Of a stretch of DNA of 64,000 bases, positions 15,065 to 54,687 are shown one piece after another. Under the pieces are notes generated by a model, which saw only the letters and a list, made by a program, of their open reading frames with translations, was not told the origin of the DNA and did no database searches. Position numbers and translations under genes: made by a program. Within the stretch, counting starts at the first letter, position 1. The number at the start of each line of letters is the position of its first letter. This DNA is from Mesostigma viride (taxonomy: Eukaryota; Streptophyta; Mesostigmatophyceae; Mesostigmatales; Mesostigmataceae): the NCBI GenBank assembly GCA_009746045.1, contig RPFO01000120.1:62001-126000 (forward strand). Direction: 5' to 3'.

Positions 15065-15521
15065 AGTTAGATGAGATGCTTAGGCTGACACACGGATTTC
15101 CGGCCTGCGCGCCGCGTATTGCCTACCGCGGCTGAGCGGGACACCTTAGTACTGTACGGCAGGGCGTACGGTACTGAGGTGTCATGTGGACTGACGTGCA
15201 GTTAGTGCCAGACTGTTCCTAGGTGCTAGATCGACCCGCCAGGTCCGGTGTAGCCGGGCCTGACGGGCCGAGTCTTAGCTGGTTGCTAGTGACGTGGTCG
15301 CATGGCATTGCAGTGTCCAGTTGTCCACTGGCAGGTGCTGCAGTGAGCACTGCCATAGGCATATAGGCGTAGCACTGGGGAGTGCCGCAACACCCGAGTT
15401 TGCCCAGACGTTCCATTCTGAGCCCTCAGCTTCCATCACTCTCATTGTATTATTGATAATACAACAATCGTTTCCTCTCAGCTCTCAGCAGTTGTCAGTC
15501 GTCGTTAGACTCGATCCAACT
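15065..15521 (+). repeat. probable 5' LTR of element B
   Basis: The start AGTTAG is fixed by the target duplication. The end is inferred at CCAACT (15521), which matches the last six bases of the element at 25659; the next bases are TGGACTGAAA, a possible primer site beginning with TGG. No second copy exists to confirm the length of about 457 bp. Confidence 0.5.
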
Positions 15522-15561
15522 TGGACTGAAATTTTTTTTATTTTTTCAGAAAAACAAAAAT

Positions 15562-15803
15562 ATGGCTTCCAATAACGGCAACGACAACAACAAGAAGGGG
15601 AAGGCGCCTGCCAGGCGCACCTCACCCCGACTCTCGCCGGAGGGCACGCCCTCCGCCAACGATGCGGCGAGGGTGACGCCCAACGTCACCTTCCGCACGG
15701 TGGTCGCCGACCACCCCAGGCGTCGGACCCCGCAGGTGGGGCCCGGCGCCCGGGGGATGGCGAGCGGTCGTCCGTTTGCCACTGGCGGCTCGTCCGCCAT
15801 GGC
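15562..15803 (+). CDS. N-terminus of Gag-integrase ORF, element B (5' piece)
   Basis: ATG at 15562 opens a basic, Ser/Pro-rich N-terminus (MASNNGNDNNKKGKAPARR...). The frame reaches the ATGGC at 15799-15803 in phase, where element A begins. The same ATGGC resumes at 21964 in the same frame, so the original start of the B polyprotein is here and not at 21964. The 15 codons read past 15803 belong to the LTR of A. Confidence 0.85.
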
Positions 15804-16148
15804 AGTTAAAGCCCGACCGGCTCAGCTATGGCGGTCGGTCACGTTGAGCTTGGGATAAGGTGAACACAGATAACTACCGTCGGAGCTGGCCCACCACTGG
15901 TTTATGTCTTAGCCAGCAAACCCTATCCGGTTAGCCGTAACCGTGGGACAAGCTAGCTGTCCGTACCGACCCGGATAAGGCCCCGGACTGGGGCCTAGGT
16001 GGCGCCGGCCCTAGGCGCCGCCCTTAGACCGGTCGCCCGCATCGGACCGCCGGATTATAGCCGGCGGCTGAGCGGACGCTAGCGGAAGGCGTGCGGACGG
16101 ACATGGGGAACTCAGAGCCAGATCCTAGGGCTCTAGAGTTACTCAACT
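15804..16148 (-). repeat. 3' LTR of element A
   Basis: 345 bp, AGTTAAAGCCC...ACTCAACT on the plus strand. Termini are AGTT/AACT, not TG/CA. The region 16149-16526 between it and the second ORF is non-coding 3' sequence; no clear polypurine tract was seen on the minus strand. Confidence 0.93.
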
Positions 16149-16526
16149 CCGACATACTCTTTTGTTCTTTGATTAATTATCAAAATAATTACATCAAATG
16201 CAGACCATACAAAACCCTCTAAGGTAGGGAACTCAAGGGGGCCTCAAGGCCGTCAAAATCACCACGGTATCGACCCGCGCCCTTGTGATCACACATGAAT
16301 AGTGATGTAATAAGTAGCGAGAAAAAAACAACTATGCCACCAGACAAAAGGTGACCCATTTATTAGGACCAGTGACCCGCCGACGGGCCCAAGGCACCGT
16401 CCAACGTGGCTAGGGTATGGTCAGGACAAGCAAAAAAAACTACCACCATGATATTCGTGAATGCTAGCAACACAGGGTGAGTTATGGCTGTATTCATAAA
16501 GCGCCCGAGCCGTAACCCTGTGTGGC

Positions 16527-18845
16527 TCACGGGTGTTGCATCGTCATGCGCTTGCGCAACACTGCGTACTGCGGGGCAGCCTCCCGCGCCTCCTTGGTGA
16601 GTGCATCCGCGGGATTGAGTTCATCCGCGATGTGCTGGAGACGCGTGACGCAGGAGGCCGCCTCAGCGAGTACGAGGTAATCAACGTCCTGTGACCGCGC
16701 ATAGGGATTGTCAAGGAAGGCCAAACAACTTTGTGAGTCAGTGTGCACCGTGCTAGTCCAGTGAAGAGTGAACCCACACGAGCCAAATACCCAACCCAGC
16801 AAGTACCGCAGCCACATGCCATGTGAGATAGCTGAAACAATGCCCCGGCATTCAGCCGTGTTGGGGCTAGTGGCAATGCGGCTGTGCAAGCGCGAGTACC
16901 AATCTAACAACATGCCAGGCTGTCCCTCATTGCTAATAAAGAACAGTGCCCCCATGCGGGCCCGCACTTGGCTGACTGTGCGCGTCTCTAGATTAGCATC
17001 CGTCACTATCTCGAGGTGCACCGGCTGTGAGCAATCGAGCCCACGAAGCACAATGCCGGGCGTCATGGCCAGCTGCCGCCGAACATGAATGGACCCTAGT
17101 CCTTCCAGCACATCATCGGGCAGGCGAGCGAGCACCGCCAAATCAGGTGCCACCGTGTCCGCCAACCACCCGAGCTTGCCCTTAACCGAGGGCCCATGGG
17201 TTGCCAACAGCGGGGACGGGAGGTCGGCCAGCAGGTCAACCACATAGTTGCGGCTATCCTGCATGTGCATGACCCATTCGCCAGAACGCGAATCCCGCTG
17301 CAACGTAGACTGCACGCCGCAAAACACCACGGGTTTACCCTCCTCATGATCCACCGCCCTGCCCAGGGGAAACTTAGCCGCCACTGCAGCAAGAAACTGG
17401 GTAGCAAAGGTGCGAGGTGCCACCAGCTTGAAGTCATCGCCATGCCACACGAAGAGGGCTGGCTCGCCAGGGACGCCGGTGGGGACCACAAAGAAGTTAG
17501 GATCCGCGCGATGGTACGTGGCCCCTAAGCTCTGCAAGACCTCCTCCGCGGAAATGCGGAAGATGATGGGAGAGCTCTGCAGCCCCTCCACCCCTGTCAA
17601 CAGCTCGATATACTCGCTGCCAATGGTGCCATCCTGCCAGACCACCGGGACCTTCACCACGTAGCGGGTGCCTTGCCATGTTTGCTGCGCGACCCCAGCG
17701 TCGCTGTGGAGGAATGCCCGCTGAAAGTCACCGCACCACATCCCGTAGTCCTTGCCCGCGTTCCGCTTGCCCAAGTAGATGACCGTCAGTAGCCGATGCG
17801 AAACATGGTTGAGCCCAGGGGTATAAAGATCCTTGGCGTCCAGCGGGGAGGACCCCTTCGTCTCCGTGACCACGGGCCTTACCCGGAACACCACCGAAGA
17901 GTTGGTCTCGTCCGGCTTGTAGGTGAGCACGAACTTCAACCGCAACCGCGTGGCCCCGGCTGGCACACTCTCCAATCCTCGGTAGACCTCGCGCTCTCGC
18001 CACTGCTCCTTGGCTCGAATGAACGCGTCGCGCCACAAAGCAAACTTGAGAGGATCTTGACAGTCCAGGACAAGTTGCTCCCACGTCACAGGGCTATCCG
18101 CCGCCAGTGAGTGTGAGTGGAGGCCGAAGCTGCGCGGGTGCCAATCCTGAGGCTGAATGATGGACTGGACGAGCGGCGGTGTGGAAAACGCCGCCATCGG
18201 TAAGCGCCGCACGACGCCGGGCTGCCCGACCACCACCCCCAATGGAGCGTGGTACTCGCGAAGCGGGATGCTGCCCACCCCCGCGACTGACAGCAAGTCA
18301 GCGGACACTGAGAACCCCGGGTATGATACGAAAGGTTCGCCCAGCAAGGCCACATCCTCGTAGCCATCCACGACGTGAAACGGCGTGTCAATGCCCAACA
18401 CCGGCAGCACCACCATCCCGGTAACTTGATATGCCGAAGTGCCTGCAAAGTCGGTCACCGATTTGTACGGCGACTCTAGCACTGGATACAGGGTGGCTGC
18501 CCGACGAGAGATAATAGACACGGATGCTTGCGTGTCCACAGCCACCAGCTGCCACGGTCTACACGTAGGAAACAAGGCTGACTTAACCGGCCTGACCCCC
18601 TGTGAGAGAGTTTTGACCTGAGCCACCCCTGATGCAGCTTTCGCTTTAAGCGCCTGAGCACGCCACAAGGCCGTGACCGTTGAAGCCAGGTCCCTAGGTG
18701 GGCGAGGCGCATGGGCAGGACCCTGACCCTCCGGCGAGGCCACGCTAGGCGGGCCTCCCACATTATCCGTGGCTAGCACAGGAGGTGAGTCACTACGTGC
18801 ACTAGGTCCCGTCAAACCCACCCCATCCTCATCCCACCCATCCAC
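16527..18845 (-). CDS. protease-RT-RNase H polyprotein, element A
   Basis: About 772 residues. Order: a short linker; a retropepsin-like domain near residues 115-215 with VAVDTQASVSII and the closing ALLGEPF (DTG replaced by DTQ); a copia-type RT with the first Asp in CGDFQRAFLHSD (~375) and HGDD in place of YVDD (~470); RNase H with TDAN, TAECRG and HTDSQS; and the copia signature NPADALTK near the end. There is no AUG at the upstream edge of the frame: the first candidate is a GTG inside the overlap with the Gag-integrase ORF, so translation is probably by -1 frameshifting. It copies element RNA in virus-like particles. All catalytic acidic residues that I can identify are present. Confidence 0.9.
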   Translation of the reverse strand: MDGWDEDGVGLTGPSARSDSPPVLATDNVGGPPSVASPEGQGPAHAPRPPRDLASTVTALWRAQALKAKAASGVAQVKTLSQGVRPVKSALFPTCRPWQLVAVDTQASVSIISRRAATLYPVLESPYKSVTDFAGTSAYQVTGMVVLPVLGIDTPFHVVDGYEDVALLGEPFVSYPGFSVSADLLSVAGVGSIPLREYHAPLGVVVGQPGVVRRLPMAAFSTPPLVQSIIQPQDWHPRSFGLHSHSLAADSPVTWEQLVLDCQDPLKFALWRDAFIRAKEQWREREVYRGLESVPAGATRLRLKFVLTYKPDETNSSVVFRVRPVVTETKGSSPLDAKDLYTPGLNHVSHRLLTVIYLGKRNAGKDYGMWCGDFQRAFLHSDAGVAQQTWQGTRYVVKVPVVWQDGTIGSEYIELLTGVEGLQSSPIIFRISAEEVLQSLGATYHRADPNFFVVPTGVPGEPALFVWHGDDFKLVAPRTFATQFLAAVAAKFPLGRAVDHEEGKPVVFCGVQSTLQRDSRSGEWVMHMQDSRNYVVDLLADLPSPLLATHGPSVKGKLGWLADTVAPDLAVLARLPDDVLEGLGSIHVRRQLAMTPGIVLRGLDCSQPVHLEIVTDANLETRTVSQVRARMGALFFISNEGQPGMLLDWYSRLHSRIATSPNTAECRGIVSAISHGMWLRYLLGWVFGSCGFTLHWTSTVHTDSQSCLAFLDNPYARSQDVDYLVLAEAASCVTRLQHIADELNPADALTKEAREAAPQYAVLRKRMTMQHP

Positions 18846-21595
18846 GGGGTCATATTGGGGCCCAGGGGAGGGGGGGGTGTAGCTGTGTCTGCCCCTGGGA
18901 GCGACCCGTGGGGTACCACCTCAGATGCTACGACAGGCGCATTATCCTTCACTACCCACCCCAGTGCCCTGTTGGCTGCCAGCTCACTCTCCATGCTATC
19001 CCCTTGCTTATAGCCTGCCACCGATGCCCATGGTACCCTATACACCCGATCATTCCACTCTATGTCTATGACCCGCAGCGGCCAGTCTAACTTTGTGATG
19101 GCCCCAGGCCCCTGCATGGTGCCCCGTTTGCCGCTGGGCGAGCTCTCCTTGTGGAACATGACCAACTGCCCGACCTCAAAAGCGCTAGACAAATCAGGCA
19201 GCGTGGCATCCTTGAGCCGCAGCTTGGCGGCGGTATCCTGTAGATGCTGTTGGTATGCCTCTACTACCTCGGGTGAGTAGGTGCCCGCTGACAGCCCCCG
19301 AGGCGTGACTAGCCCAAAGCCCTTGACATCAAGCACGTGCCTATGGTTGCACACATGCATGAGCTCCTTGCACCACGCCGTCTTGACCGCGTAGGATTTG
19401 CCATGTGGGTTATCCTGTCGCTTGGCTGCCACAGTCTTGACATAGCTTACAGTGCGATCTATCATGCCCATATTGCCGTGATCCTCACGCCCCACGATGA
19501 CCACGGCCTCCATCCCCGGCAAACCTTGCACACAGCGGAACTGCTGGTCTAGCATGAGCTCCACTACGGGATGAAAGAAAGCCAGGCTGATCTTGATAGC
19601 CCTGTGCAGGTCAGCCTCAAACATGTGAGGCAGCGGCTCAATGTAGGTGGCCTTGCTGAACCTATCCTTGACTATGAAATAGGTGTCCCCCCCTTCCATG
19701 TGCATGACATCCCCCACAAGGTACCCTCGCTCCAAGGGTGGAGTCTTGGCATGCCGCCTACGCGACTTCTTCCTGATCTTGATGCAGGCAGGACACTGAG
19801 CACGCACATTCTTCAGCTCGTTGTATAAAGGTGCCCCCAACATGTGTGCCCCCTCTACCTCGGCTTGGGCCTCATGCCCGTATGCACGGTGCATCTGGTA
19901 TGCTAACAGTTTCAGGGTGACAGCCTGAGGTGCAGTGGCATTGTCAGGATTCTCAACAGGTGGGGTGACTACTGGGGTAGTGACATTGGCTAACTGGGCA
20001 GCTTCAGAGGCTGCACGAAAGGCCGCCCGTGTGAGCACCTTGCCAATGTGAAGATCCACACTAGGGTGGTGTGTACCGAGAACATCTGCCCGCCCAGCAT
20101 TCTCTTGCACTGTCACAACATTCCTCATAGGCCCAACCGCCCCAGTATCTAGCTGGGGTGCTGCAGTAGTGCTTGGTCGCTCGGCGTTGTACACACCCGA
20201 CCTAGAAGACACCACATTGCTTAGGTCACGCATTGTAGACCCGTGCTCAGGAAGCACGTGATCCTGGCGCGACAGAGCCAGAGCAGCATCAACGGATTGC
20301 GTGAGCACATCACGGAATGAGACAGAGGATGCAGTCACGTTGCTTTTAGGAACGACGTCAGGCTCTACGACGGCCCGGTTCAGCGTGACGCATTGAGCAA
20401 AAGAAGGGGTATCGAGCGTGCTCTCACCTGACTTTCGTGCTGCCCGTCGCTCTGCCCACTCCTCGCGTGTGCCGTGGACGACGATGCGCTTGGCCTTGCA
20501 CGCCTCCACGCTGTGACCACGCAGAACGTCGTGGCACTTGCGGCAAAGGTTGTCCTCGAGCTCCAGGTCCGGGCGAACTCGGCAGTCATCCCGGACATGG
20601 CGACGTCCGAAGCAGCGCTCACAGCGTTGCTTGCGGTCAGTAGACGCCCCCTGCTGCCGCTTGGCCGGGGGATGATCACCCTGCTTGGCGTCGCCACCAT
20701 GCCCGCGCTTGCGCCCTCGCTGGCCCCCGTTGTTGCCGTGGCCGACGACCTTTTTCAGGATGGCCGTAAGCTCCGACCGCGTAATTGGAGCCTCTGCGCC
20801 TGAAGAAGAAGACGCGCCGGCATCCACCTTGCGCAGGGATGGCAGAGCAGCCGAGGCAGCCGGCTTGGACTGCGCACTCTTGAAGCATGAGATCAAATAC
20901 AGCATGCCCTCGTCGAAACTGACGGCACTCTTCTTTTTGAGTTCCGTCGCTATGGTCAGATGCACATCCGACGACAGGTCGCATTTCTTGAGAAATCGAT
21001 TGCACAGGAAAATGGGCTTGAGAGTATCTAGCAGCTTGTGCTTGTGCACGAAGACCTGGAAATCACGTGCAGCCCCGGGCAAATTTGCCTTATTAACTGC
21101 ATAGCCCTCGAAGTCGTTGAAGGCTTGCTCGTCGGCCTCTTCCTTAGACCGCGACAAGTGGGCATCTAGACCGTTGTAAAAAACTTCCCAGGTTTGTTTG
21201 TTGTCGTCCGCAATGCGAACTAGATTGGCAATGTTTGGGTGCTTTGTTGTACTGCAGAATACTGCACGGAACTTGCCAATCAGCTCCGAATCTTTGTCTG
21301 CGCGTCCATCGCGCAGACGCTTGAGAGCAGCTAGAAAATCTGCTGCGTCGTCCGCCGTATAGTCGGCAGGTAGATCCGCGGGCACCTCCGTTTGCTTGAG
21401 AGGGCCGCGATTCAGTGCATCGTCAGCAGCAAGCATCAGGTGCTTGAACTGCTTGGCCAGTTCAGGTTGCGCCACGAGGGTTTGCATCAACCTCGTGGCC
21501 TCGTCCGCACTAAAGCGTGGCAGGACGGTCCCTGCGGCCTCGCCACTTGGCGTATCTGTGTGTTCGCCCGTGCGGCTCCGTGTACCGGAAGCCAT
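18812..21595 (-). CDS. Gag-integrase polyprotein, element A
   Basis: 927 residues from ATG at 21595. Residues ~1-250 are helical Gag. Two zinc knuckles follow near 325-365: CERCFGRRHVRDDC (CX2CX4HX4C) and a CX2CX6HX4C relative. Integrase begins near 560: HRAYGH...CPAC zinc motif, first Asp in VGDVMHMEGG, second Asp in MLDQQF. At the expected catalytic Glu the sequence is GMIDRTV, where element B has GIIERAI and D has GAIERAI. A C-terminal SH3-like segment ends with WASVAG. No protease lies between Gag and integrase, unlike Ty1/copia. Glu-to-Asp at the third catalytic position may weaken or abolish integration despite the young LTRs. Confidence 0.9.
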   Translation of the reverse strand: MASGTRSRTGEHTDTPSGEAAGTVLPRFSADEATRLMQTLVAQPELAKQFKHLMLAADDALNRGPLKQTEVPADLPADYTADDAADFLAALKRLRDGRADKDSELIGKFRAVFCSTTKHPNIANLVRIADDNKQTWEVFYNGLDAHLSRSKEEADEQAFNDFEGYAVNKANLPGAARDFQVFVHKHKLLDTLKPIFLCNRFLKKCDLSSDVHLTIATELKKKSAVSFDEGMLYLISCFKSAQSKPAASAALPSLRKVDAGASSSSGAEAPITRSELTAILKKVVGHGNNGGQRGRKRGHGGDAKQGDHPPAKRQQGASTDRKQRCERCFGRRHVRDDCRVRPDLELEDNLCRKCHDVLRGHSVEACKAKRIVVHGTREEWAERRAARKSGESTLDTPSFAQCVTLNRAVVEPDVVPKSNVTASSVSFRDVLTQSVDAALALSRQDHVLPEHGSTMRDLSNVVSSRSGVYNAERPSTTAAPQLDTGAVGPMRNVVTVQENAGRADVLGTHHPSVDLHIGKVLTRAAFRAASEAAQLANVTTPVVTPPVENPDNATAPQAVTLKLLAYQMHRAYGHEAQAEVEGAHMLGAPLYNELKNVRAQCPACIKIRKKSRRRHAKTPPLERGYLVGDVMHMEGGDTYFIVKDRFSKATYIEPLPHMFEADLHRAIKISLAFFHPVVELMLDQQFRCVQGLPGMEAVVIVGREDHGNMGMIDRTVSYVKTVAAKRQDNPHGKSYAVKTAWCKELMHVCNHRHVLDVKGFGLVTPRGLSAGTYSPEVVEAYQQHLQDTAAKLRLKDATLPDLSSAFEVGQLVMFHKESSPSGKRGTMQGPGAITKLDWPLRVIDIEWNDRVYRVPWASVAGYKQGDSMESELAANRALGWVVKDNAPVVASEVVPHGSLPGADTATPPPPLGPNMTPWMGGMRMGWV
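18869..18877 (-). promoter_or_regulatory. candidate -1 frameshift site (C8T), element A
   Basis: In the Gag-integrase frame the codons are ACA CCC CCC CCT CCC. C_CCC_CCT fits the X_XXY_YYZ slippery pattern, and the -1 frame stays open from here through GTG GAT GGG into the protease-RT ORF. The zero frame terminates 54-60 bp downstream at 18812-18814. Downstream GC-rich sequence (CTGGGCCCC) could form structure. Inferred from sequence only. Confidence 0.55.
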
Positions 21596-21614
21596 CGGGA
21601 TTTTTATGAATACA

Positions 21615-21963
21615 AGTTAAAGCCCGACCGGCTCAGCTATGGCGGTCGGTCACGTTGAGCTTGGGATAAGGTGAACACAGATAACTACCGTCGGAGCTGG
21701 CCCACCACTGGTTTATGTCTTAGCCAGCAAACCCTATCCGGTTAGCCGTAACCGTGGGACAAGCTAGCTGTCCGTACCGACCCGGATAAGGCCCCGGACT
21801 GGGGCCTAGGTGGCGCCGGCCCTAGGCGCCGCCCTTAGACCGGTCGCCCGCATCGGACCGCCGGATTATAGCCGGCGGCTGAGCGGACGCTATGTAGCGG
21901 AAGGCGTGCGGACGGACATGGGGAACTCAGAGCCAGATCCTAGGGCTCTAGAGTTACTCAACT
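21615..21963 (-). repeat. 5' LTR of element A
   Basis: 349 bp, near-identical to 15804-16148. On the minus strand it ends TTTAACT and is followed by TGTATTCATAAAAATCCC before the ORF start at 21595, so there is no initiator-Met-like primer site; priming must use another tRNA or mechanism. Confidence 0.93.
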
Positions 21964-24390
21964 ATGGCACCCGGGGGGCAGGTCCCCCGGGCACGTAATT
22001 CCCCCGTCGCAGGTGATGGGGGTCGTGAGCGGAGTGACTCCTCGGAAGAGGACGGGGAGGTGCCGCCTGCGAGGCCACGGCCTTCGCTAGAGATTTCGTC
22101 ACAGACGCCAGCGACGTCTGGTAATCTTTCGGTGGGCCGACAGATGGCCACCATGGACATCGACCGTTATGGCGCGCATGTTCCACCGCCTGTCCCGTTC
22201 GGGCGTTTACCGTATCTTCTCCCCATCGGGGAGGATGACATCCCAGCGTTCATTTCGGTGAACGGCTGGATCATTCGGCAGCGTTTCCAGCTGACCGTCG
22301 ATGAGCCGACGAATGCGATGGAGGTTCATCGGACGCAGACGACGATAGAAGGTCGTTTGCGGATGCAGTGCCCCATGATCCAGGTGGCCGTTTGGATGTG
22401 GTGTTTCGCCAATCGGCCGAGGCATAACCCCAGCACTGTGGATCAGTGGGCGTCCAGGCAGCGCCAGAGAGATGCGCTGCGTGTGGTCGCCAAGCAGGAG
22501 ATCACGCTGACTCCGTTGCCACCGTGGCCCCAAGTCACGCCAGTTGGCTGGGGCCCGGATAGGCGCGAGGCGGCTGCGATGCCGCCTGCGACGGAGCGCG
22601 GGGCGGCAGACGCCCCTAACACGCCTATGGGTGGTGAAACCACCCAGGACCCTCTGGCAGGTCAGAGGGTCCAACCTCAGCAGCGGGCTCCCCCGCCCAG
22701 CGTGGGGGGCCAGGTGGCTGAGGAGTCCACCGGGGTTGCAGGGACCCCGGCGGCGACGCCAGCTCCCGGGGTCGCAGGGACCCCGGCAGCGACGCCGGCG
22801 CCTCCGGCGCTGGCGGGGGATGCAGCCCCCATGGAGGGTGTCACTGGCACCTCCAGCGGCTCTGGGGGGCAGGCACCCTCTAGTCGCAACAGGGACAAGG
22901 CCCTGGCTGGGCCGGAGGGGCCTCAGGGTCCCACCTTGGCAGGGCAGCAGCCGGCACGGCTGGACGGCGATCTGGAAGGTCGGGACTTCATCACCCTGAG
23001 TGATGAGTCTGTGTGGCGGGCCATTCAGGCTGCCACAGCCTCCTTCCGTGGGCTGGCCGACAGGAGCCAGCAGATGCACGTCGCGGAGGCGGGCAGCCTG
23101 GTGTGTGCGATTATCACGCACATCCTGGGCTTGCCCAACCTCCACGCAGACACACGCAGGGTGTGTGACGACTTGCTGCCTGCCTTGCAGGCCCTCCTCT
23201 CAGGGAGGAGGGTGCAGGGCAACAGGGTGGGCCTGGTGCGCCTCATAGAGCTCCTGCACAATGCCATCATGAAAGGGGCTGGTAGGTGGTTGCCTACCTG
23301 GCTGCATCATGACTTTACTAACCCTACTGACGATGACGTGTCTCTCTCTCCCACCTTCCATGACTGGGAGGAGGCCCGCAGCAGGAGGCGGGAAGTCACA
23401 CATACTCACACCCCAACCCAGCCCACCCCTATGTTGCCTACCCATCCTACACAGCCCATGTTTGCCTCTCCTGCTCAGCTCACTCAGATAGCACTTCCCT
23501 CTCAGCATGTAGCTCCTGTGAATGCTGCAGCAGCAACACCATCTTCTCCCTCTCCCCCTGCATCCCCCTCTAGGTGGCCCACTTACAATGAAAACCGTCC
23601 TGTGGATAGGACGCCTGTGTCCTGTGTCAGGGGGCTGCCTGAGGGGTATACTAGGGAGCAGGGGAATCATGCACTTCTCTCTCTTCAGCTGGCTAGGGAG
23701 GAACTGAATGTCAAGAATTGGTTTGGATCTCTCATGCAGGGGGATTTCTACCATCAGTCCTCCTCTCAGATTCAGAATCTCATCCTTGTCTTCCAGCGTA
23801 GGTATCCCAAGTGGCAGGACACGCAGGCTAGGGCAGTTTGGGAGGCCTTCATGAAGGAGCTAACTGACCTCCTCTCCACCCCCTCATCTGTGGACACATA
23901 TGGGGCATTCAGGTGGGTAGAGGAATACAGGGTCACCTCCGTAGACTATGTGGCGGAAACCAAGAAATATGAGCTAGCCATCAAAGCACGTCCTGATGTC
24001 CAGCAGCTAGATCACAAGTTCTTGCTGCGTTCTTTCCTTGAGAAACTCAAACTTGACAAAAACACCTACGCTATGCTTGCAACAGGAATGGCAAAGTACT
24101 GGGAGGACATGAAGGAGGCATTGGATTATATCAAGCTGGCCCTGGCCCCACTCAGCCAGGGGGCCATGGGTACCTCTGTAAAGAGGGTCAGGGGGGAGGA
24201 TAGGGAGGAGGAGGACAGGGAGAGGGAAGACAGGAGCAAGAGACCTGTAACCATGGCAGAGGTGAAGTCCCTGCTGGGACAGATGCTTAAGGGCAAGGGC
24301 AAGGGCAAGGGCAAGGGCAAGGGCAAGGGCAGGGGCTGGGGCAAGGGCAAGGGTAAGGGGCAGTCTCCTTCAAAGGGGGGCAGCTCCAGC

Positions 24391-24458
<68 letters not shown>

Positions 24459-25725
24459 AAACAAAAACAATAACAACAACAAGCAGGCAAAGGAGGACAA
24501 GTCTTCTCTGCGGTGCACCCGCTGTGGCATGAAGTACCATGAACGGCCTACCTGCCACAAGAACGAGGACGAGCTGGGGCATCTGGACGTCCTGTGCCAC
24601 AAGTGCCACGGGCCGCCCCACGGTGACCCCAAGGACTGCAAGCGGCCTCCTTACGGCAAGAAGTGTGAGTCTCCCTCTCATGCTGGCTTGAGTGTGCCTG
24701 CTTCACCTCTTTCATCTGCATGCCCCACTGTCAGAGCAGTGAGCAGTTCTGGAAAGGTGCTACAGCTGGTTACAGAAGATTATGTCTCTAAACCAACCTT
24801 CACATCTATGGTTCCCAAGGTGTGCAGAGTGTCCCCCTCAGAGGATGCTCATATCAGTCTACAGGAGCTTGCTTTGCAGTTGCACTTCCTTTATGGGCAT
24901 GAAGTGAGTGCAGAGGTGGTGACAGCAGCAATAGGGGGGGCAGCACTCAGACGTGCATGCCAGGTGGTCAGATCCCACTGCCAGCATTGTCAGTTCAATG
25001 CACCCAAACCCCCTAAGTGGCATGTAGCTACCCCACCTAAGTGCAAGGGCAGGGTGGTAGGAGATGTCTTTCATATAAAAGGACAATCTTACTTGGCACT
25101 TAAAGACGCATGGTCACGGTACACAACCATTGAACCATTACCTGGCATGGACAAAACACAGTTGCTCAGGGCTCTCTTGATTGCTCAGGCCAGGTACTAC
25201 CCTGTGGAGGCATTGTTACTGGATCAACAGTTCACGTGCCTTGCCAATGAACCAGGGTGTGAGGCTATTGATCTGGCTGGGCTAGAAGATCATGAGAGGC
25301 AAGGCATTATTGAAAGGGCCATCAGGTCCATTAAAACCCTTGTAGCCAAGGAAGATGGCAATCTGCTGGCTGACAGTGGGTCATATGCTGACAGAGCTCT
25401 GTGGTCCACCAGGCTGTGCCAAGTCCTCAACAGGAGGCCACTCATGAAAACCCCACAAGGGGTGATCATTACACCAGATGGATTGCATGCAGGCATTTAT
25501 CCACCTGAGGTACTAGCCCTATACAATGCACAGCGAGCACATACAGCTAGCAGGTTAGCTGTCAAGGATGCAAAGCATCCACGTCCCACCTTCAGAGAAG
25601 GGGACCAGGTCCTATTCTACAAGGAGTCGGGACTAGGCAAGGTGGGTACCTGGCCAACTAAAGGGCCTCGACCCACGTGGAACGCGTACGTCGTCTCCAA
25701 GGGAGGCAGGCCTGCGTCGGTGTGA
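21964..25725 (+). CDS. Gag-integrase polyprotein, element B (main piece)
   Basis: The piece has 1253 codons; the true start is at 15562 and the last genuine codon is at about 25659. Order: a Pro/Ala-rich N-terminus; a helical segment near residue 340-450 (ALQALLSG...LIELL...WLPTWL) related to the 5' ORF of D; a capsid-like domain (~560-720); Gly-Lys repeats from (GGCAAG)n; an Asn tract from (AAC)n; two zinc knuckles (CTRCGMKYHERPTC and CHKCHGPPHGDPKDC); and integrase with HFLYGHE...CQHC, VGDVFHIKG, LLLDQQF and GIIERAI, so the DDE triad is complete. The C-terminal domain stops at the element end, with the last 22 codons coming from antisense X1 Gag. No protease or RT. Confidence 0.88.
24291..24483 (+). 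repeat. coding (GGCAAG)n and (AAC)n tracts in element B Gag
   Basis: The tracts encode alternating Gly-Lys (24291-24357) and poly-Asn with scattered Lys (24391-24483) just before the zinc knuckles. D has a shorter Asn/Lys tract at the same place (about 50380-50415), so low-complexity basic/Asn linkers are a family trait. Confidence 0.9.
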
Positions 25726-25981: not shown

Positions 25982-27004
25982 ATGCCGTTGCCGCTTCCGG
26001 TGCCGTTGCTGTTGCCGTTGCCGTTGCCGCGGGCACCGCCATTCCGTGAGCCACGCCCCCGGCCAGGGGTATGGTACGCGTGGTTGGAGGCAGAGCCAGA
26101 ATCTGCAGGGGACGGGAGGCCACCCGTCAGCAGATCTTCAACTTCCATCAGGCGCTGCCGCAGGACCGGAACAGTCTCGACCTCGTCAAGACGGAGGGAG
26201 ATTAGCGCGGGCCGGTACTCGGCGCACAGACCGCTGAGGACGCTGGCAATAAAGGCAGTGACTGGGAACGTAATGCCTGCAGCCTGGAGCTTGGCGTACA
26301 GCAGTTCCGAGCGGTTCACATACGGCTCCACAGTCTCGCGAGCAGTTTGACGAAGTTGGGCCATTTGTTTCCACAAGTCCAGACGCATGGACTTGGTGAG
26401 CTTGCCATGCTCATAGACCTGGATGAGCTTGATGATGGCCAGACTGCCCATGCAGGCGACGATCCAGGGGGAGCGTCTGCATCAAGGCACGCGCAGGCCC
26501 ATCGACGACGGCCAACAAGGCAACGTAAAGGAGCCGATCCAGTTGCACGTTCTGGACAACACCTGCCAGCACTCCAAGGAGGCCAGCATAAAGGGCAACA
26601 AGGCCCAATAAATGGTCCTTAAAAAGGGATCCACAGCGTCCAATCTGAGCCGGTAAAAACCTTAACCCCACGAACATCCTTCAAAAGCTCCTTGCAAGCC
26701 ACAAAGGAGGCTCGGGCGGGCCCCCCCCCGCCGTACCGCGGCTCAAACCACCACCGTCAACTGCCGGATTCTCACCGTCGGGAGCACCGAGGGCGGCGTA
26801 TTCGTCACCACCTGGCGGGTGCAAAGCCAGGGCAGCCAGCCCAGCTGCTGCGTCAAAAAATACTTCGCCTGGGAGACCCGAGTCGGTAAGAGTTACGGAT
26901 GATGCAGTCAAAGCGGCCAAACCGGCAGCGTCGTCGGCATCAAAATCGTTACTGCCAGCAGCGCGACCCGCGGAAGCGACTTGGCTACGAGTGCCGGAAG
27001 CCAT
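25665..27004 (-). pseudogene. copia Gag of X1
   Basis: The start codon is at 27004 (MASGTRSQVASAGRA...). The N-terminal 90 codons end in a G9 run (C9 at 26721-26729 on plus), after which the sense frame shifts: KDHLLGLVALYAG..., then the Gag/UBN2-like helices KLTKSMRLDLWKQMAQL...VNRSELLYAKLQ. A further frame break near 26450 separates these. The C-terminus has Gly-Asn or Arg-Gln repeats from (GGCAAC)n and the zinc knuckle CSVCAKPGHDAATC. LTR element B interrupts just after the sequence YAFHVGRGPL; the protease continues at 15059. Confidence 0.88.
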
Positions 27005-27250
27005 TCCAGCAAAAAAACAGCACAGAACTCCGAAAAAAAGGTAACGTTGACCAAGAGATTCCGGCCAGGAATCGAACCAAGCACCTATTGTATTATGCGC
27101 CAGACGGGAATCAAACCTCCGCCTACGCTGTCGTCATGCAAATCTAGCCGAAATACACAAATCTAAAGTCAACCGCAAGCAGAGCCTCGGGAAACGACTT
27201 TTACCAGCGGTAAGCAGGTCGAAAGGCGTGCGAACCGCACTCCGATGCCA
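27005..27250 (-). promoter_or_regulatory. X1 leader with primer-binding site
   Basis: Between the LTR and ATG. The minus strand begins TGGCATCGGAGTGCGG, close to the initiator-Met complementary primer site TGGTATCAGAGC of copia elements. Further in are two tRNA T-arm-like motifs (GGTTTGATTCC and GGTTCGATTCC), also present in X2. Confidence 0.75.
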
Positions 27251-27416
27251 TGTTAGGAGTGAGAAAACAATGTTTGCCACAAAGTTTTACTTTATTTCAC
27301 TCAGATAAAAATAAGTCTCAGTCGGCAGCTGGCCGGCTGCTAGTTCCACCACAGGAGTGTGTGAGGTGTGAGGTACTGAGAGAGCAAACCAGGTGCGTAG
27401 CTTCGCCTTTTAAACA
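27251..27416 (-). repeat. 5' LTR of copia X1
   Basis: 166 bp, TGTTTAAAAGG...CCTAACA on the minus strand: canonical TG..CA with a 4-bp terminal inversion. It is matched by 27701-27866 in X2. A TATA-like AATAAAG lies in the 3' half. Confidence 0.8.
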
Positions 27417-27700: not shown

Positions 27701-27866
27701 AGGTTAAAAGGCGAAGCTACACACCTGGTTTGCTCTCTCAGTACCTCACACCCCACACACTCCTGTGGTGGAACTAGCAGCCGGCCAGCTGCCGACTGAG
27801 ACTTATTTTTATCTGAGTGAAATAAAGTAAAACTTTGTGGCAAACATTGTTTTCTCACTCCTAACA
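27701..27866 (+). repeat. 5' LTR of copia X2
   Basis: Nearly identical to the X1 LTR from TTAAAAGG onward. The first bases read AGGTT instead of TGTTT, so the terminus has mutated. It ends CTAACA before the primer site. Confidence 0.8.
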
Positions 27867-27882
27867 TGGCATCGGAGTGCGG
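27867..27882 (+). promoter_or_regulatory. primer-binding site, X2
   Basis: TGGCATCGGAGTGCGG directly after the LTR; similar to TGGTATCAGAGC used by copia elements primed with initiator Met-tRNA. Confidence 0.7.
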
Positions 27883-28112
27883 TTCGCACGCCTTTCGACC
27901 TGCTTACCGCTGGTAAAAGTCGTTTCCCGAGGCTCTGCTTGCGGTTGACTTTAGATTTGTGTATTTCGGCTAGATTTGCATGACGACAGCGTAGGCGGAG
28001 GTTTGATTCCCGTCTGGCGCATAATACAATAGGTGCTTGGTTCGATTCCTGGCCGGAATCTCTTGGTCAACGTTACCTTTTTTTCGGAGTTCTGTGCTGT
28101 TTTTTTGCTGGA

Positions 28113-28230
28113 ATGGCTTCCGGCACTCGTAGCCAAGTCGCTTCCGCGGGTCGCGCTGCTGGCAGTAACGATTTTGATGCCGACGACGCTGCCGGTTTGG
28201 CCGCTTTGACTGCATCATCCGTAACTCTTA
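28113..28230 (+). pseudogene. Gag N-terminus of X2 (piece 1)
   Basis: Starts ATGGCTTCCGGCACTCG, identical in frame to X1. The leader 27883-28112 precedes it. The frame is cut after GTAACTCTTA by element T3 and resumes at 34491. Confidence 0.88.
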
Positions 28231-28337
28231 GAGGGGATTCATAAGTGTTTGCTCAATTTCATAAATTTTACTCAATTTTTCCACATGTGATTAAATCCTT
28301 ATATTTGTCAATAAAGCAGGGGTCATCCAGCCTTCAG

Positions 28338-31840: not shown

Positions 31841-32139
31841 TGGAACTTTCATACGCCGCGCTGAGTCGGTGGAAGATCGAGCCACAAAAGAGGCAGGAGA
31901 GGCATCATTGGGAGAGGCGTGCCAACCCCGAGCGAGACGATGGTGAATTCGATCAAATTGGCTGATTGCAATAATTTTGCGGAGCTAGAATAATCGCTCG
32001 CGAGAGCTGCCATGGGCGGTCGTGAAGGTTCAGACTATTACAAATGGTATCCATGCTTAATTAATTTGGATGGTACTGGTACCTATTTCTAGTTACCAGT
32101 TTTACTCGTAACTACAAATCGTAACCAGTTTTAGAACCG

Positions 32140-34410: not shown

Positions 34411-34490
34411 AGGTACCCTCAGATCTGAAAGATTTTATTTTTACTCATTTGAAGACTTGTGAAATTGAGCAAACACCTATGAATCCCCTC

Positions 34491-45460: not shown

Positions 45461-45575
45461 GAACGAGGAGATTCACACACTTGATACAAACGCATCACAT
45501 TGCAAGCGGTGAGCATGGTAGAGATGGAATGTGAAAAATATAGGGTTATCATACAATATAGCCAATGTACCATCC

Positions 45576-47791: not shown

Positions 47792-48477
47792 AGTTAAGTA
47801 ATGCAATACGCATTACTTTTGCATACTTGGGATTAACGTTAGATGGGAAAGGATTTACGTTAGATGGATAGAGATTGTTACGCTCTTTCCAACGGCACCT
47901 TGAACGCCTCATTTGGTTACGGGACGTAAAAGTTATGACGTTTCCTAGGCTGTGCCGACAGTACCCGGCGCGCCACTGTGGGCGCGTACGGACACAGGAT
48001 GTACAAGTGTCACTTTGATAGTCCGCAGGACGTTGACAGGACTTGTACAGGACTTGATGGTCAATTGATAGGTAGGCGCTGTAGCGCGCCAGGACCTATG
48101 AGACAATTGATGCTGACTAGTGTACGGATAGGTCCACAGGACTAGCCGTATGGACAATTGATAGATCTGCGCGCCAAAGGCGTGCCAGAGTCTGTGTAAT
48201 CAATTGATTGACAGTTCAGCTGTGACAGTGCAGCTGAATACTTGGACGCGTCCCTAGTAAGCTATATGAGTGACTTGGTCACACCGGGACGCTAGTTCTT
48301 GCGTGCACGTTCTCTTGGCACTGCGACCCTGTCGTCTGTGCTGCGTGCAGTCTTGGAAGTGACGTGACTTACGTCTGTGTTTCCTGATTGTTAATAAAGG
48401 CAACTTCCTGCAAGAACCATGGCGGAATTCGTGGCATTCTTACCCTCACAACTCGTATTACACGCTCTGTCAAAAAG

Positions 48478-49190
48478 ATGCCAAATTCGGAAGAATTTCG
48501 GATTCCGGACGATGAGGAAATAGCCGCTCCGCCGGCTGGTTCTTCGTCAAGACCGACTGTGCCGTCGTGGCAACAATTGCTCGACGAAGTTACAGTTCGC
48601 TCGACGAGCTTCATCGTCAGCAGCGTGCAGCTCACGCATTGCTCGGGGATAACCCCGAGGACCCCGATTTGCCAGCACTGGTGCCGGCAATCCGCAACCT
48701 GTTGGACCAGATTCGAAACATTTTATCGACATTTACGGTCCAGGTGCGGGGAGGTTTGCGGTCGGTGACCGAAGTCACGACTGCCATTGAGGAGTTGGAC
48801 AACGTCCTCTCTTCACTCACCGGTTACCAGAGAAACCTGCAAAACTGGGCATCGCTTCGCACGGGGGGCGCGCCGGCGGTGTCAACAAATTTGTTTCAGG
48901 ATCTCGCGCTGTTATCGCTGCTCACTCGCGGCGTACGCAGTCGCGAGCGCCAGGTTTTAATTAACCTGGTGGCATTTCTCGCCTCTGTGCGAGAGTGGAT
49001 TCCCGCGGGGTGGGAATTATTGACGATCTTTACACATCCTCTGCGCCTCGTCGCGCGTCGGCGCGTCGCAACTTACGCGGCGGGGAGCACGCCGGTTTTA
49101 ATTCATACCGGTGCAGGTCCGGAGCTGGATATGGAGGATCGTGAGTTCGTATACACGTACTGCGACTTCAGGGGCCTTGACTACTAGTCG
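48478..49190 (+). pseudogene. 5' ORF of element D
   Basis: ATG at 48478 (MPNSEEFRIPDDEE) starts a frame that shifts near 48590 into the frame ending at 49187 (helical, LDELHRQQRAAHALLGD...). The segment DLALLSLLTRG...LINLVAFL...WIPAGW resembles ALQALLSGRR...LIELL...WLPTWL in the N-terminal half of B Gag, so B carries in one polyprotein what D has as a separate ORF. The 49191-49356 gap is a short non-coding spacer. Confidence 0.55.
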
Positions 49191-49356
49191 GCCTAATTTT
49201 CTTCTGCAGTACTTGTCGACATTTTTTTTGTCGAATTTCGGCGGCAATTCGCGGGGCGGCAGCGACACCGGCGCAGGCGGCAGAGGCGACACAAAAATTT
49301 TGTACATATTTTCTGCTGCTTCGTTAAGGTGTTCTTTGAATAGCTGGTAGTGCAGG

Positions 49357-50073
49357 ATGGCTGAGGGACGCCGTAGCAAGGGTCCAGCCAGTGGGAATAA
49401 TAATGGGGGTGCTGGTAGTGGAACCGCTCACGTAGATGACGTGGGGCTTACCGGAGAGATTACCAACCTTCCTCACAATAATAATAATGCACAAGCTATT
49501 CATGGCTTTGATCTTACCACACAGGGTCTTTTAATTGTCAATCAGTTGCAGCCTGTAACCTCAGACTCCAAGCCTAAGCAGGCTGAAGAGTTTGTGGAGG
49601 GATTGGAAGGGTTCCCTAGCTTGTACGGTGGTACAAATTACTATCAAATCTGGATAGGCAGTAGCACTTTTGGCAAGTGTACTGACCAGATTAAGGACCT
49701 AACCAGGGAGTGCAAAAAGGCCAATAAGGCCTGGGCACTGTACGTGGCTGAGCTGAAGGAGCTGCTGGAGGATCAGAGGAAGAAGGTGGGGATCCATTGG
49801 CAGGACAAGTACCAAGGGTGGGAGGTCAAGGGGGACCTGATCCAGAACTTTCTCAACTATTGTAAGATGGTTGAGGAGGGCAGGGCTCACGGCTTTAATG
49901 TCGCTGATAACATAGCCCTAACCAACTGGCTCAAGGTTTCTGGGCTGGATAAGGCGACACGTGGCTCCTTAAAAGTCATGTGTGCCCCACACTCTACCCT
50001 GAAGGCCTACAAGGTCATAATAAACAAGCACTCGAGGCAGAGGAGCTGTTTGAGGGTGGAGTGCCAGCAGTGA
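49357..50073 (+). CDS. Gag of element D
   Basis: ATG at 49357. Gly/Asn-rich N-terminus, then a helical capsid-like domain ending AHGFNVADNIALTNWLKVSGL. The last ~20 codons (SRQRSCLRVECQQ) look out of frame: the -1 frame, open from 49980, gives ALEAEELFEGGVPAVKATQ and then the basic zinc-knuckle region. Fragment E shows a -1 change at the corresponding place. Confidence 0.75.
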   Translation: MAEGRRSKGPASGNNNGGAGSGTAHVDDVGLTGEITNLPHNNNNAQAIHGFDLTTQGLLIVNQLQPVTSDSKPKQAEEFVEGLEGFPSLYGGTNYYQIWIGSSTFGKCTDQIKDLTRECKKANKAWALYVAELKELLEDQRKKVGIHWQDKYQGWEVKGDLIQNFLNYCKMVEEGRAHGFNVADNIALTNWLKVSGLDKATRGSLKVMCAPHSTLKAYKVIINKHSRQRSCLRVECQQ

Positions 50074-50471
50074 AGGCTACCCAGGCAGGCGGGCGTACCC
50101 AGGGTGGCTCCAAGACGTCTGAGGCTGACCGAAGCCAAGGAGGGCGTAGGGGCAACCATCACAAGCGCAAGGGAGATCATTCACCTGATTCTGACAGGAG
50201 GTCACACTCCAAGTCGGTGTTCAGGCGGGTGGGTGGTCAGCCCAAGCAGGGCAACGCGTCTGACAATGGGGGCAGTGGCCAGGGCAAGTCCAAGATACAA
50301 TGCTACCTGTGCAAGGGGTGGGGGCACATCAAGAAGGAGTGTCCCAGCTTCAAGAAGTCCCAGGGCCAGGGCAGCAACAAGAATAACAACAACAACAAGA
50401 AGAACAACAACAAGTCCCAGGCAGGCCAGCCTTCAAAGGGCAGTCAGCAAGAAGACAACAAGGAGCAGTGA
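49980..50471 (+). CDS. nucleocapsid-like region of element D, ends at in-frame TGA
   Basis: Basic linker, zinc knuckle CYLCKGWGHIKKEC (CX2CX4HX4C) near 50308-50350, then an Asn/Lys tract. The frame stops at TGA 50469-50471 in the context CAG TGA CTG, and the same frame continues open on the far side into integrase. TGA followed by C is a leaky context, so either readthrough or a nonsense mutation. Confidence 0.7.
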   Translation: MCPTLYPEGLQGHNKQALEAEELFEGGVPAVKATQAGGRTQGGSKTSEADRSQGGRRGNHHKRKGDHSPDSDRRSHSKSVFRRVGGQPKQGNASDNGGSGQGKSKIQCYLCKGWGHIKKECPSFKKSQGQGSNKNNNNNKKNNNKSQAGQPSKGSQQEDNKEQ

Positions 50472-51188
50472 CTGTCTGAGGCAACCCCTACACACCTTAA
50501 TTCACCCAAGGGGGAGGCCAGGTGCTCCAATGCAGATTTTATATCTGGGCAACAAGAGGGTGATCTCCAGGTTCAGTGTGGCCCCAGGTCACCTGGAGAG
50601 GTACAGGTTCCTATGAAGACGTCCTTGACAGCTGATGCAGCTGTAAGTATGTCTGACCCTATGCATCCTCGTGCTGGGCACGAGGGTGGACCTCTCATTT
50701 TGAGAGAAACCAATGTACAACCACAGAGGGGTGTGAAGGCCTCTGGTGGTATGCATGTGGTCCCTGCTGGCGGTCCAGGTGTTGGGCATGAGCAGGGTGA
50801 CTCAGGCTCTGAGTCAGAACAGGATGGAAGTCAGCATGGTGATGCTGGACAACCTGACAGCACAGTCCTGACTGTGCCAGGGACTGCTTCCTCTGTGTAC
50901 CAGGAGTTGGGTGCCCGAATCCACAACATGTTTGGGCATGCCACTTCTCTGTCAAACAACTTTGCCTTCCGTATGGGCAGGGCACCCCTTCTTAAGGCGT
51001 GTCAGCAAGCTGCCTCACGGTGTAAGTGCCAGTTGTCCTCCAACAAGCCCAGGAAATCACATGCCAAAGCTCTACCTCAGAGCATTGGTGATCTGCAGTG
51101 TGATATCCAACACATCAGGGGCATGCAACTGTTGGTGTGCGTGGACAGGTACACGAAATACAAGGTGCTGAGCATTTACCTTCTATGA
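50472..51188 (+). pseudogene. linker and integrase N-terminus, element D
   Basis: Same frame as the zinc knuckle. After a Ser/Gly-rich linker it reaches the integrase zinc domain (ARIHNMFGHATS...CKC) and the first catalytic Asp in DLQCDIQHIRG, then VCVDRYTKYKVLS. Ends at TGA 51188 because of a frameshift; the sense continues in the frame of 51137-53872 (PSMKNRYLLAAL). Confidence 0.7.
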
Positions 51189-53697
51189 AGAACAGGTACT
51201 TGCTGGCTGCCCTGCAGAATGTAAGAGCCAAGTTTCCTACCACAAGGATCCAGGTGGACATGCAGTTTCAGCATCTCAAGGGTGATCCTACCCTTCCTGA
51301 GTTGCTGGTTACACCTAGGGAGGCTCATGGGCAGCAGGGTGCTATCGAGAGGGCAATCCAGGAGGTCAAGAAATTGATCATCTCTGAAGACTGGGTACCC
51401 TTGTCTGCACCTGCACTTGTCAGGAGTGCATGGCTGAGGAACGTGGAGCAGCAGCTGAACAGCAGGGTTAACTTCTACTATGATGGAGTTGCTGTCAGCC
51501 CAATGGGTCTATATCATGGCCTGTGCCCACCACATGTGCTGGAGGGCTGGAAACATGCTGCACATGTCACCTTTGCCAAGCTGAGGGAGAAGGACCGGGG
51601 TTGGAAGATGCTGGAGCCACAAGTGGGTCAGAAGGTCCTAGCTTGGAAGGAACCTAGCCTTTATGGCAAACGTGGTAGCTGGAGTCCTGGGGTGGTTACC
51701 CAGGTTGATGAAGCTAGCCACGCATGCTTGGTCAGCATGGAGGACGAACCAAAGCATGTACACCGGCTGAGTTGGTCATATGTCAAGCCTAACCTGATGA
51801 ATGAGGGCAGTCAGGCACAAGGCTCACAGGATCTGCAGGATTTTCAGGTCCCAGGTGACATCACTGACGCAACGACCACATCTGTTGCAGGGGAATCTGT
51901 CAGCCCTGGCCAGGTTGCAGAGGTACTTGTTGAACAGGCTGCAAGGTCAACAGCTGGGGAGTCAACTGTCAAGCCCAAGGCACTAACCAAGCCCAGGGGG
52001 ACAAGTTTGGCTGGATTGATTGGGGCTCTACAAAGGGCCAAGAAGCAGCCCAAGGTAGCCAAGCTCAGGTGGCATGGCAATCTGGGGCTGGACACTGCCT
52101 TAGAGGTAGACACTAATTCTCAGGTCTCCATTATTGGGACCAGGGCTGCAGCAGGGTACAGCATGTCTGAACCCAGCTATCAGTTTGTGTCTGACTTCAG
52201 TGGCGGGGTACACGTGAAGGTACTGGGTGAGGTATTCATTCCTATCCTTGGACAGGACACTGCTTTTTGTGTCTTGGAGGGCTATCAAGGACCTGCTCTT
52301 CTGGGGCAGAATTTCCTATGCCAGGATGGGGTAGTGATCACGTCCTCTCTCCTGACTAAGGAAGGGGCTGGTCAGGTCCCACTGATTAATTTCAGGACCA
52401 CTCACCTATCACGTGCAGTAACCAGGACGGTTAAGCGTGTGCAAGTGTGCCAGGGGCAGGAGCCCTTGGTTGATGACCTCATACTGCCAGCTGCTAGTCA
52501 TCCAAGCAGTTTGGGCATTGGTCCTCACTCACTTGCTGGACACAGCCCTATCAACTACCAAGGCCTGGTGAAGCTCATGTCCTCTCCCATTATGTGTCCC
52601 CAGGTCACACTGGGTCTCATTAAATCTGGGGAGGACTGGATCTCCAAGAAATGCGTGGAACCTGTCAATGACCTGCCTCCTGCACGACGTCTACTCAAGC
52701 TCAAGTTTGTCATCAAGATGAAGGAGGTGGACGGGGTCAAGGTACCACATGTCAGGCCAGTGCTGAATGAGTTCAAGGGTACTGGTGAGTGCACTGCTGA
52801 GGAGTTGTATACCCCTGGCATGCTGCATGATACTTGGAGGCTGCTGCTGTGTGTCTTTCTAGGCCTTCTCAACAAGGGCTTGGACTATGGCTCAGTGGTG
52901 ATAGACTTCAAGAGGGCATTTCTGGAGGGTGATGCAGATGTGGCACAGGAAAAGTGGGAGGGCAAGACGCCTTTCTATGTTAGGGTGCCTGCTGTATGGA
53001 AAAGGGACATCCACACGGAGTTCCTTAAAATCCTCAAGGGCCTGGAGGGCCTGAGGTCAAGTCCAATAATCTGGAGGGAGACTCTCAACCGTTTCCTGAA
53101 GGAGCATTGCAACTTGAAGGTCTCTCCTGTAGACCCCTGTCTGTTTCTGGGGCAATGGGAAGGCCTGCCAGTGTATGCTTCGCTGCACGGGGATGACCTA
53201 CATCTGATAGCTCCCACGTCGTGGCTTAAGGAGCTGATCACCATCATTAAGTCCAAGTTTCCTCTGGGTAGGGAGCAATGGCAGGTGGAGAATGAGCCTC
53301 TGCTGTTTGTGGGCATGGAGGCCACACTGGTGAAGAAGGGAGGGGAGTGGCGTATGCTGCTGGTGGGGGGCAATGACTATCAAGAGACCCTCATTAGCAA
53401 GCTTCCTCCAACCATCACACAGGCACTGTGTCCCATGGTGAGGGGCATGGTTGCTTGGGTGGCAGGCATTTCCAGGCCAGACCTTATGGTCATAGCCAGG
53501 TTGCCTGATGACATGCTGGTGGAGCTAGGGTCTGCCAAGGTGGCTGATCAGGTCAGGGCTTCATCTGGCATTCTGTTGTCTGCAGTGGATTTATCACAAC
53601 CCATTTGCATGGAGCTGTATGTGGATAGCTCAATGGACAGCAGGCAGGTCTCCAAGGTCAGGGGCAGGGCTGCAGGGCTCTTTGTGCTCAGACAGGA
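51137..53697 (+). pseudogene. integrase C-terminus-protease-RT-RNase H, element D
   Basis: Order: integrase second Asp in RIQVDMQFQHL and Glu in GAIERAIQEV; SH3-like segment GKRGSWSPGVV; retropepsin-like domain ALEVDTNSQVSIIG...ALLGQNFL (about 52105-52320); RT with VIDFKRAFLEGD and SLHGDDLHLIAP; RNase H start LYVDSSMDS. At 53698 a MITE interrupts after VLRQ; the frame resumes at 54288. The order integrase-protease-RT agrees with element A. Confidence 0.88.
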
Positions 53698-54284
53698 CAC
53701 TACATTTCGCCACCGCGGAAACCCAATTTATGCGAGAATGTGGTTCCGTCAATACGGCGGGGGTTACAAATTCAATTTCGAAGTTCGGCACCGTCGGATA
53801 CCAGTAAAGCAACACTTGTTATCTAGAATCGCGCCATTTGGCATCAATTGGCCAGTTCTGAAAATTCGATGAAATCTCTAGTCCTTGGTCGAATATTTCC
53901 CTCCGATTTGGATGACGAAAATTGAGTACGAATTTCTTAGTACAGTCCACCGTTTAGTTCAGTTCAGTTTATTCCCACGCCGCTTGCTGACCTGACGGAG
54001 GCCAAATTCGTACTGAACACTATCGCAAGTCCGGTCGATACTAAAAATTGCTACTTCCGAGATGTCTGACGGAATTCCTGCTAGGTCCATGCTTTGGTAC
54101 TGGACGGATGCTGAAATTCACTGCGATTCTGTCCGAATGAGGAAAATTGTCAGAAATCTACTCTCGATACGAACGTAACGAGAATTTCAAGTATCTGACG
54201 CTCGGAGAGCTGCCACCGTTTTCCCCTACTTGACCGAACCACATTCCCCGCTAAAAAAGGTGTCCTAGGCGGCGAAATGTAGTG
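53698..54284. mobile_element. CACTA-type MITE 1 in RNase H of element D
   Basis: 587 bp, ends CACTACATTTCGCC and GGCGAAATGTAGTG, with 3-bp duplication GGA (53695-53697, 54285-54287). No coding capacity. Excision restores the RNase H frame. Confidence 0.93.
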
Positions 54285-54687
54285 GGAAGGCCTGGGGAGT
54301 TTGGTGAGCTGGTTTAGTCGCCTGCACAAACGGGTGGCTGTCAGCAGTGATGTGGCAGAATGCAGGGCTATTTGTGAAGGCATTCACACAAGCCTTTATC
54401 TGAAGGAGTTGCTTCATCAGATGACTTCTAACACTCCTTGGCCACTTCAGGTTACCACTCTTCTAAAAACAGACTCCATGGGGATGGTGCAGTTTGTGCA
54501 CAGGCAGATGGCCAGAAGTAGGGACTTGGATTATCTCCTTCTTAAGGAGTTGTCCTCCTTGGCCAATATTGAGCATATCCCTGGGGTTGACAATCCTGCT
54601 GATGCTTTGACCAAGCTAGTGCAGAAGGCAGCAGTGCAATACAAGGTTCTTCAGTCTCTGATGGACCCATCTCAGCAAGCTGTCTAA
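54285..54687 (+). pseudogene. RNase H C-terminus, element D
   Basis: LVSWFSRLHKRVAVSSDVAE carries the RNase H Glu, TDSMGMVQF the later Asp, and IPGVDNPADALTKL the copia-type closing motif, ending at TAA 54685-54687. The aligned part of element A is WYSRLHSRIATSPNTAE and NPADALTK. Confidence 0.88.

Follow-up and report, generated by a model that had tools for sequence, protein, structure and literature searches.

The 64-kb window analysed here, a stretch of contig RPFO01000120.1 of the single-celled green alga Mesostigma viride, contains three long terminal repeat (LTR) retrotransposons, A, B and D, which belong to a clade with the domain order Gag - zinc knuckle - integrase - protease - reverse transcriptase (RT) - RNase H (Table 1). 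The window was studied together with the rest of its genome (440 Mb, 2243 contigs), in which LTR elements are given as the biggest share of the repeats (27.9%) in the genome paper (PMC6947507). In A, which lies inside B, the order is spread across two overlapping open reading frames (ORFs), with Gag, the zinc knuckles and the integrase in ORF1 and the motifs of protease, RT and RNase H in ORF2. The C-terminal part of ORF2 gave no profile match, and carries NPADALTK, which we take to be an RNase H motif. The initial annotation had read this order in A and in D, and it was right for both, though the window copy of D is damaged and the order has to be seen intact in another copy, L054.

Table 1. 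Features of elements A, B and D in the window (TSD, target site duplication)
Feature	Position	Strand	Remarks
Element B, truncated copy	15065-25659	+	interrupted by A at 15804-21963; TSD AAAGG (5 bp) on both sides
B frame: Gag - zinc knuckles - integrase	21964-25725	+	match to most relatives stops at residue 1231
B integrase	24880-25656	+	GIIER, Glu kept; rve E 0.0065 (under cut-off)
Element A, whole	15804-21963	-	inside element B; ends AGTT..AACT; TSD ATGGC (5 bp)
A 5' LTR	21615-21963	-	98.85% identity to the other A LTR
A 3' LTR	15804-16148	-	LTR pair with 21615-21963
A ORF1: Gag - zinc knuckles - integrase, 927 residues	18812-21595	-	
A zinc knuckles CX2CX4HX4C and CX2CX6HX4C	20498-20623	-	motif at ORF1 residues 325 and 351
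A integrase	18986-19903	-	H..H..CPAC, D, D, Asp for retroviral Glu, then C-terminal domain; ends approximate
A candidate frameshift site	18857-18875	-	-1 slippery heptamers CCCCCCT and GGGCCCC, in frame, in ORF1/ORF2 overlap
A ORF2: protease - RT - RNase H, 772 residues	16527-18845	-	
A protease core	18297-18560	-	DTQAS ... ALLGEPF; ORF2 residues 96-183
A RT	17166-17963	-	HGDD at ORF2 residue 468; ends approximate
A RNase H-like C-terminal part	16581-17018	-	NPADALTK; from sequence and alignment; ends approximate
Element D, damaged copy	47848-58459	+	LTR matches 47848-48454 and 57851-58459, 99.3%
D Gag region	49351-50471	+	ends in TGA; frame broken in this copy; zinc knuckle ~50301-50342
D integrase	50920-51811	+	frame break near 51165-51188
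D protease core	52085-52348	+	DTNSQ ... ALLGQNF
D RT	52640-53440	+	RVT_2 E 2.9e-6, 27.5 bits, under 31.6 cut-off; ends approximate
D RNase H-like end	54283-54687	+	NPADALTK; separated from RT by insert

Copies elsewhere in the genome were sought with four queries (A ORF2, D, B and P0009, a member of a further family, E); the copy counts are lower bounds, the best candidates having been scored. All 58 scored matches to A ORF2, the window's own counted, are 100% identical over the 772 residues and lie in a 797-residue frame. D has at least 50 matches, and 36 of 50 carry a frame of 1208 residues. In L054 this frame follows a TGA and runs from integrase through protease and RT to RNase H; the Gag of L054 is itself broken further upstream. 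Compared with L054, the window copy of D holds additional DNA at 53697-54285, 54994-55474 and 55770-57489. Family E has at least 71 matches, 13 of 71 in a 1249-residue frame and the others shorter or with stops. Its copies L051 and L052 consist of LTRs around a Gag with two zinc knuckles, an in-frame TGA and a single integrase-protease-RT-RNase H frame of 1249 residues; the element occupies L051 1151-7348, with LTRs AGTTG..CAACT, the TSD ACGCT and the Pol region, integrase included, at 2831-6577. The in-frame TGA between Gag and Pol, followed by C, is found in D as well as in E (L051 2828-2830, L054 2214-2216, window 50469-50471). A fifth family, F, was met on the plus strand of L059, where it extends from the integrase tail through protease to RNase H.

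B was described in the initial annotation as an integrase fused straight to Gag without protease. The fusion is indeed present, and the absence of protease applies to the window copy only. In the genome, B has at least 48 matches; those outside the window are 79-96% identical, many with stops, and the open frame reaches 2112 residues at one place. In the relative L060, integrase, protease, RT and RNase H are continuous in the frame listed at 2112 residues, as far as RNase H, and, judged by position, the Gag and integrase matches there belong to this one Pol frame; on the minus strand of L059 another B copy runs from integrase through protease into RT. Most far-reaching relatives cease to match the B protein (1253 residues) at residue 1231. 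Protease is thus missing from the window copy because that copy ends behind the integrase, where its relatives continue. It starts with AGTT and ends with CCAACT, the right end following directly upon the integrase code; no 3' LTR was found at this end, which looks like a loss of almost the entire 3' half and LTR. Near position 2500 of L059, the minus-strand B copy diverges from L060 inside RT, beside the end of the plus-strand Pol of family F.

Since uninterrupted integrase-protease-RT-RNase H frames occur in several high-copy families, the order does not come from nesting or from the stitching of frames. With A nested in B and inserts present in D, one might suspect that nesting or chimeras in the assembly had produced the order as an artefact. 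The chance of this is negligible, since many copies at different places show it in unbroken frames, L051 with LTRs and a TSD besides.

The segment on which the order depends is the retropepsin-like motif (DTQAS in A, DTNSQ in D) that had been noticed after the integrase and before RT. It lies there in all five families (A, B, D, E and F), and a profile of four of them finds the fifth with E values of 1e-30 to 7e-40 (12 sequences searched); because it recurs at one place in five families, DTQAS/DTNSQ is not a chance motif. Asp-Thr is present in five of the five. Mean pairwise identity across the clade is 0.44 in the protease core, 0.42 in RT and 0.24-0.33 in the linkers, and the core is roughly as conserved as RT. 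When PDB was searched with a profile of three segments, the eight matches at E ≤ 10 were all HIV-type (human immunodeficiency virus) proteases (best E 0.012, a weak value); with five segments, eight out of nine were (best E 0.3, also weak). For predicted structures, 49 of 50 and 50 of 50 matches listed were retropepsins, at low to middling model confidence and with modest Z scores. Judged by where the ranges of the structure matches start, the Asp falls at HIV Asp25, and by eye there is a retroviral-type LLG pattern near the end of the segment. Profiles and models together support the view that the segment between integrase and RT is most like retropepsins, with weak scores, which is what the DTQAS/DTNSQ reading had proposed.

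Taken as a whole, the view that these elements are a distantly copia-like RT clade whose Pol reads integrase-protease-RT-RNase H instead of protease-integrase-RT-RNase H seems to us highly probable. Several points weigh against it. The protease segment has no Pfam match at E ≤ 10; the best PDB values sum two weak matches in double proteases; all five families have Gln, Asn or Met in place of the Gly after Asp-Thr; no TSD was found at the window copy of D; and in L053, a copy of A, ORF1 is broken and no TSD could be seen. The want of a Pfam match, the insignificant PDB matches of single copies (searches of PDB with single sequences gave nothing useful) and the middling confidence and modest Z of the models would also suit some other small beta domain, unrelated to retropepsins, in which DT stands by chance. 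We regard such a domain as very unlikely, since profiles and models both pick retropepsins in the correct register, and since a control profile of the copia protease of the same genome found no protease, so that the method does not yield such matches for just any profile.

Gly after Asp-Thr is nearly fixed in active retropepsins and, with the DTG glycine absent from five of five families, catalysis by the clade protease is unproven. The domain might thus have the retropepsin fold and be inactive as a protease, retained as a spacer or for dimerisation, with processing by another protease or none. This is unlikely, in our judgement: Asp and Thr are invariant in the five families, conservation of the core is about that of RT, many identical copies exist of A and of D, and DSAAS, likewise without the Gly, occurs in a copia element of this genome. 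Moreover, the protease profile found no second protease between Gag and integrase in any of the four families tested (A, B, D and E). Two candidates in this region were set aside. In A ORF1, a DTG standing alone at residue 483 gave no match to the protease profile and showed by eye no retropepsin pattern, nor was a counterpart seen in the spacers of B and E; the DSG in the D spacer (Pol residue 110) gave no match to the profile either.

If the domain is a retropepsin, it could still be the original copia protease, shifted by internal rearrangement and not foreign. Such a shift requires no donor, and RT is copia-like in a B relative. We hold it to be rather doubtful, given the LLG pattern and the HIV-type matches of the clade protease, and given that the local copia protease profile, which finds no proteases, does not match the clade protease; an hhalign comparison of the two gave a probability of 1%, out of register. 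Because the clade protease looks closer to retroviral or Ddi1 retropepsins than to its copia counterpart, replacement would be the likeliest origin, a retropepsin having been gained behind the integrase and the upstream copia protease lost.

The initial annotation also placed the RT near copia, which holds loosely. RVT_2 matches a B relative with 37.7 bits, over the cut-off, and D with about 27 bits, under it; no match was obtained in A (E ≤ 1) or in E and F (E ≤ 10). RVT_1, the gypsy-type RT, matched none of A (E ≤ 1), B, D, E and F (E ≤ 10). The copia comparison rests on canonical elements of the same genome: L056 and L058 both show Pol_BBD (the copia-type protease), gag_pre-integrs, rve, SH3_retrovirus and RVT_2 in this order, the gag_pre-integrs match being slightly below its cut-off. 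Protease before integrase in copia proper, as had been stated, was therefore seen in two of two controls; the check was made on these and not on the copia pieces of the window (61327-62118 and 9212-8817), which are 56-57% identical to an integrase stretch of a canonical copia element of the genome. Pol_BBD, clear in L056 and L058, gave no match at E ≤ 10 in the clade proteins scanned. In a tree of eight RT segments (445 residues each, except copia2 with 283), the five clade families stand apart from three local copia elements with 100/100 support; being unrooted and without outside references, the tree reveals that the group is separate, not where it belongs. RT identity is 33-61% within the clade and 19-25% to the three copia elements. 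In sum, RT would place the clade loosely near copia.

Searched with a profile of the A, B and D integrases, PDB gave seven matches at E ≤ 10 (best E 0.1), the name of each being integrase or Pol polyprotein. At the Glu position of the DDE triad, Glu is found in B and D and Asp in the many-copy families A and E. Around the integrase, neither gag_pre-integrs nor SH3_retrovirus matched in A, B, D or E at E ≤ 10. The ends of LTR retrotransposons are usually TG..CA. The ends differ here: the window A and the E copy L051, both of which have an LTR pair and 5-bp TSDs, have AGTT..AACT instead, and B starts with AGTT and ends with AACT. The protease, the integrase tail and the LTR ends of the clade are all unlike the copia type, be it that of this genome or that described.

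How such a Pol would be expressed can be outlined. The elements would move by the normal copy-and-paste cycle, the integrase being the first Pol domain after the nucleocapsid and the protease, between integrase and RT, cutting both ways. The families would differ in their route to Pol. D and E may reach it by read-through of the in-frame UGA behind Gag. B would rely on a single long frame, found complete at one place, with its integrase in the Gag frame as in A. In A, Gag and integrase would be made from one frame, and protease, RT and RNase H after a -1 frameshift at CCCCCCT or GGGCCCC; as the shift would lie downstream of the integrase, A integrase would be made at the Gag level. Slippery heptamers of this type (last base not G) occur twice in the overlap and three times in the entire ORF1; in codon shuffles of the ORF1 tail, at least one appeared in 7% and at least two in 0.55%. 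A bolder account, to which we give somewhat less than even odds, is of a separate deep Gag-integrase-protease-RT-RNase H lineage in which a retroviral-type retropepsin replaced the copia protease and is active without the DTG Gly, in which some D,D,D integrases act at AG..CT ends, and in which each family found its own solution to the Gag-Pol ratio.

Relatives in databases are few. A Pfam scan of seven window proteins at E ≤ 1 gave RVT_2 in D, a weak rve and one presumed chance match in B, and no match in the other five; from this near-absence, the proteins must be very divergent. Among 5.8 billion proteins (about 8000 candidates scored per search), A ORF2 found two Mesvir1 models, one with 100% identity over 81% of the query and the other with 46% over 87%, and nothing else, which does not imply a narrow host range; A ORF1 found none. 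An IMG/VR search gave no relatives, and a whole-ORF2 profile of A found no RT in PDB, its matches being presumed chance. No report of integrase before protease was found in the open-access literature, as judged by title or start of abstract, Repbase lying outside this scope.

The window has other repeats. A 1.96-kb duplicate (6005-7965 and 39248-41209) is 99.95% identical and contains internal direct repeats of about 420 bp. A near-perfect inverted repeat of 527 nucleotides (26887-27413 and 27704-28230) surrounds a centre of 290 nucleotides, and satellite arrays with units of about 173 nucleotides lie in opposite orientation at 28328-29500 and 32035-34581, their listed arms being 95-100% complementary.

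Pol order is one of the characters that separate the LTR superfamilies, and a stable new order in a high-copy clade suggests that reshuffled Pol domains can remain functional. Retropepsins without the DTG Gly and integrases with Asp for Glu would, in addition, be natural experiments useful for learning what such active sites require. Elements with an unexpected order may be missed by survey design: in Neumann et al. (2019; PMC6317226), which gives the copia order, a large plant survey discarded such elements as likely mispredicted.

The integrase-before-protease order is absent from the well-known LTR families. With Ty1/copia, the clade shares LTRs, an integrase before RT, RNase H in last position, a zinc knuckle Gag, an RVT_2-type RT (over the cut-off in the B relative) and the 5-bp TSD, which is the typical length in Ty1/copia; it differs in having the protease after the integrase, in the lack of Pol_BBD, gag_pre-integrs and SH3_retrovirus matches, and in its AGTT..AACT ends. 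From Ty3/gypsy, where the integrase comes after RNase H, it differs in that the integrase precedes protease and RT, and in the lack of an RVT_1 match. The diatom CoDi elements are likewise algal and copia-like, but the paper on them gives protease, integrase, RT and RNase H as the expected order, with two lineages specific to diatoms (PMC2806351). Gmr1 offers a precedent for an integrase relocated within Pol; these are, however, gypsy-like elements with a copia-like integrase order (Goodwin and Poulter 2002, as remarked in PMC2774666), not elements with integrase before protease. Troyka is another LTR lineage with non-standard LTR ends, but its ends are CG..CG, its TSD is 3 bp and its gypsy order is standard (PMC12440569). 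Finally, the retroviral and Ddi1 retropepsins provide the best profile and structural matches to the clade protease, with the Asp in register, and differ from it at the Gly, for which the clade has Gln, Asn or Met.

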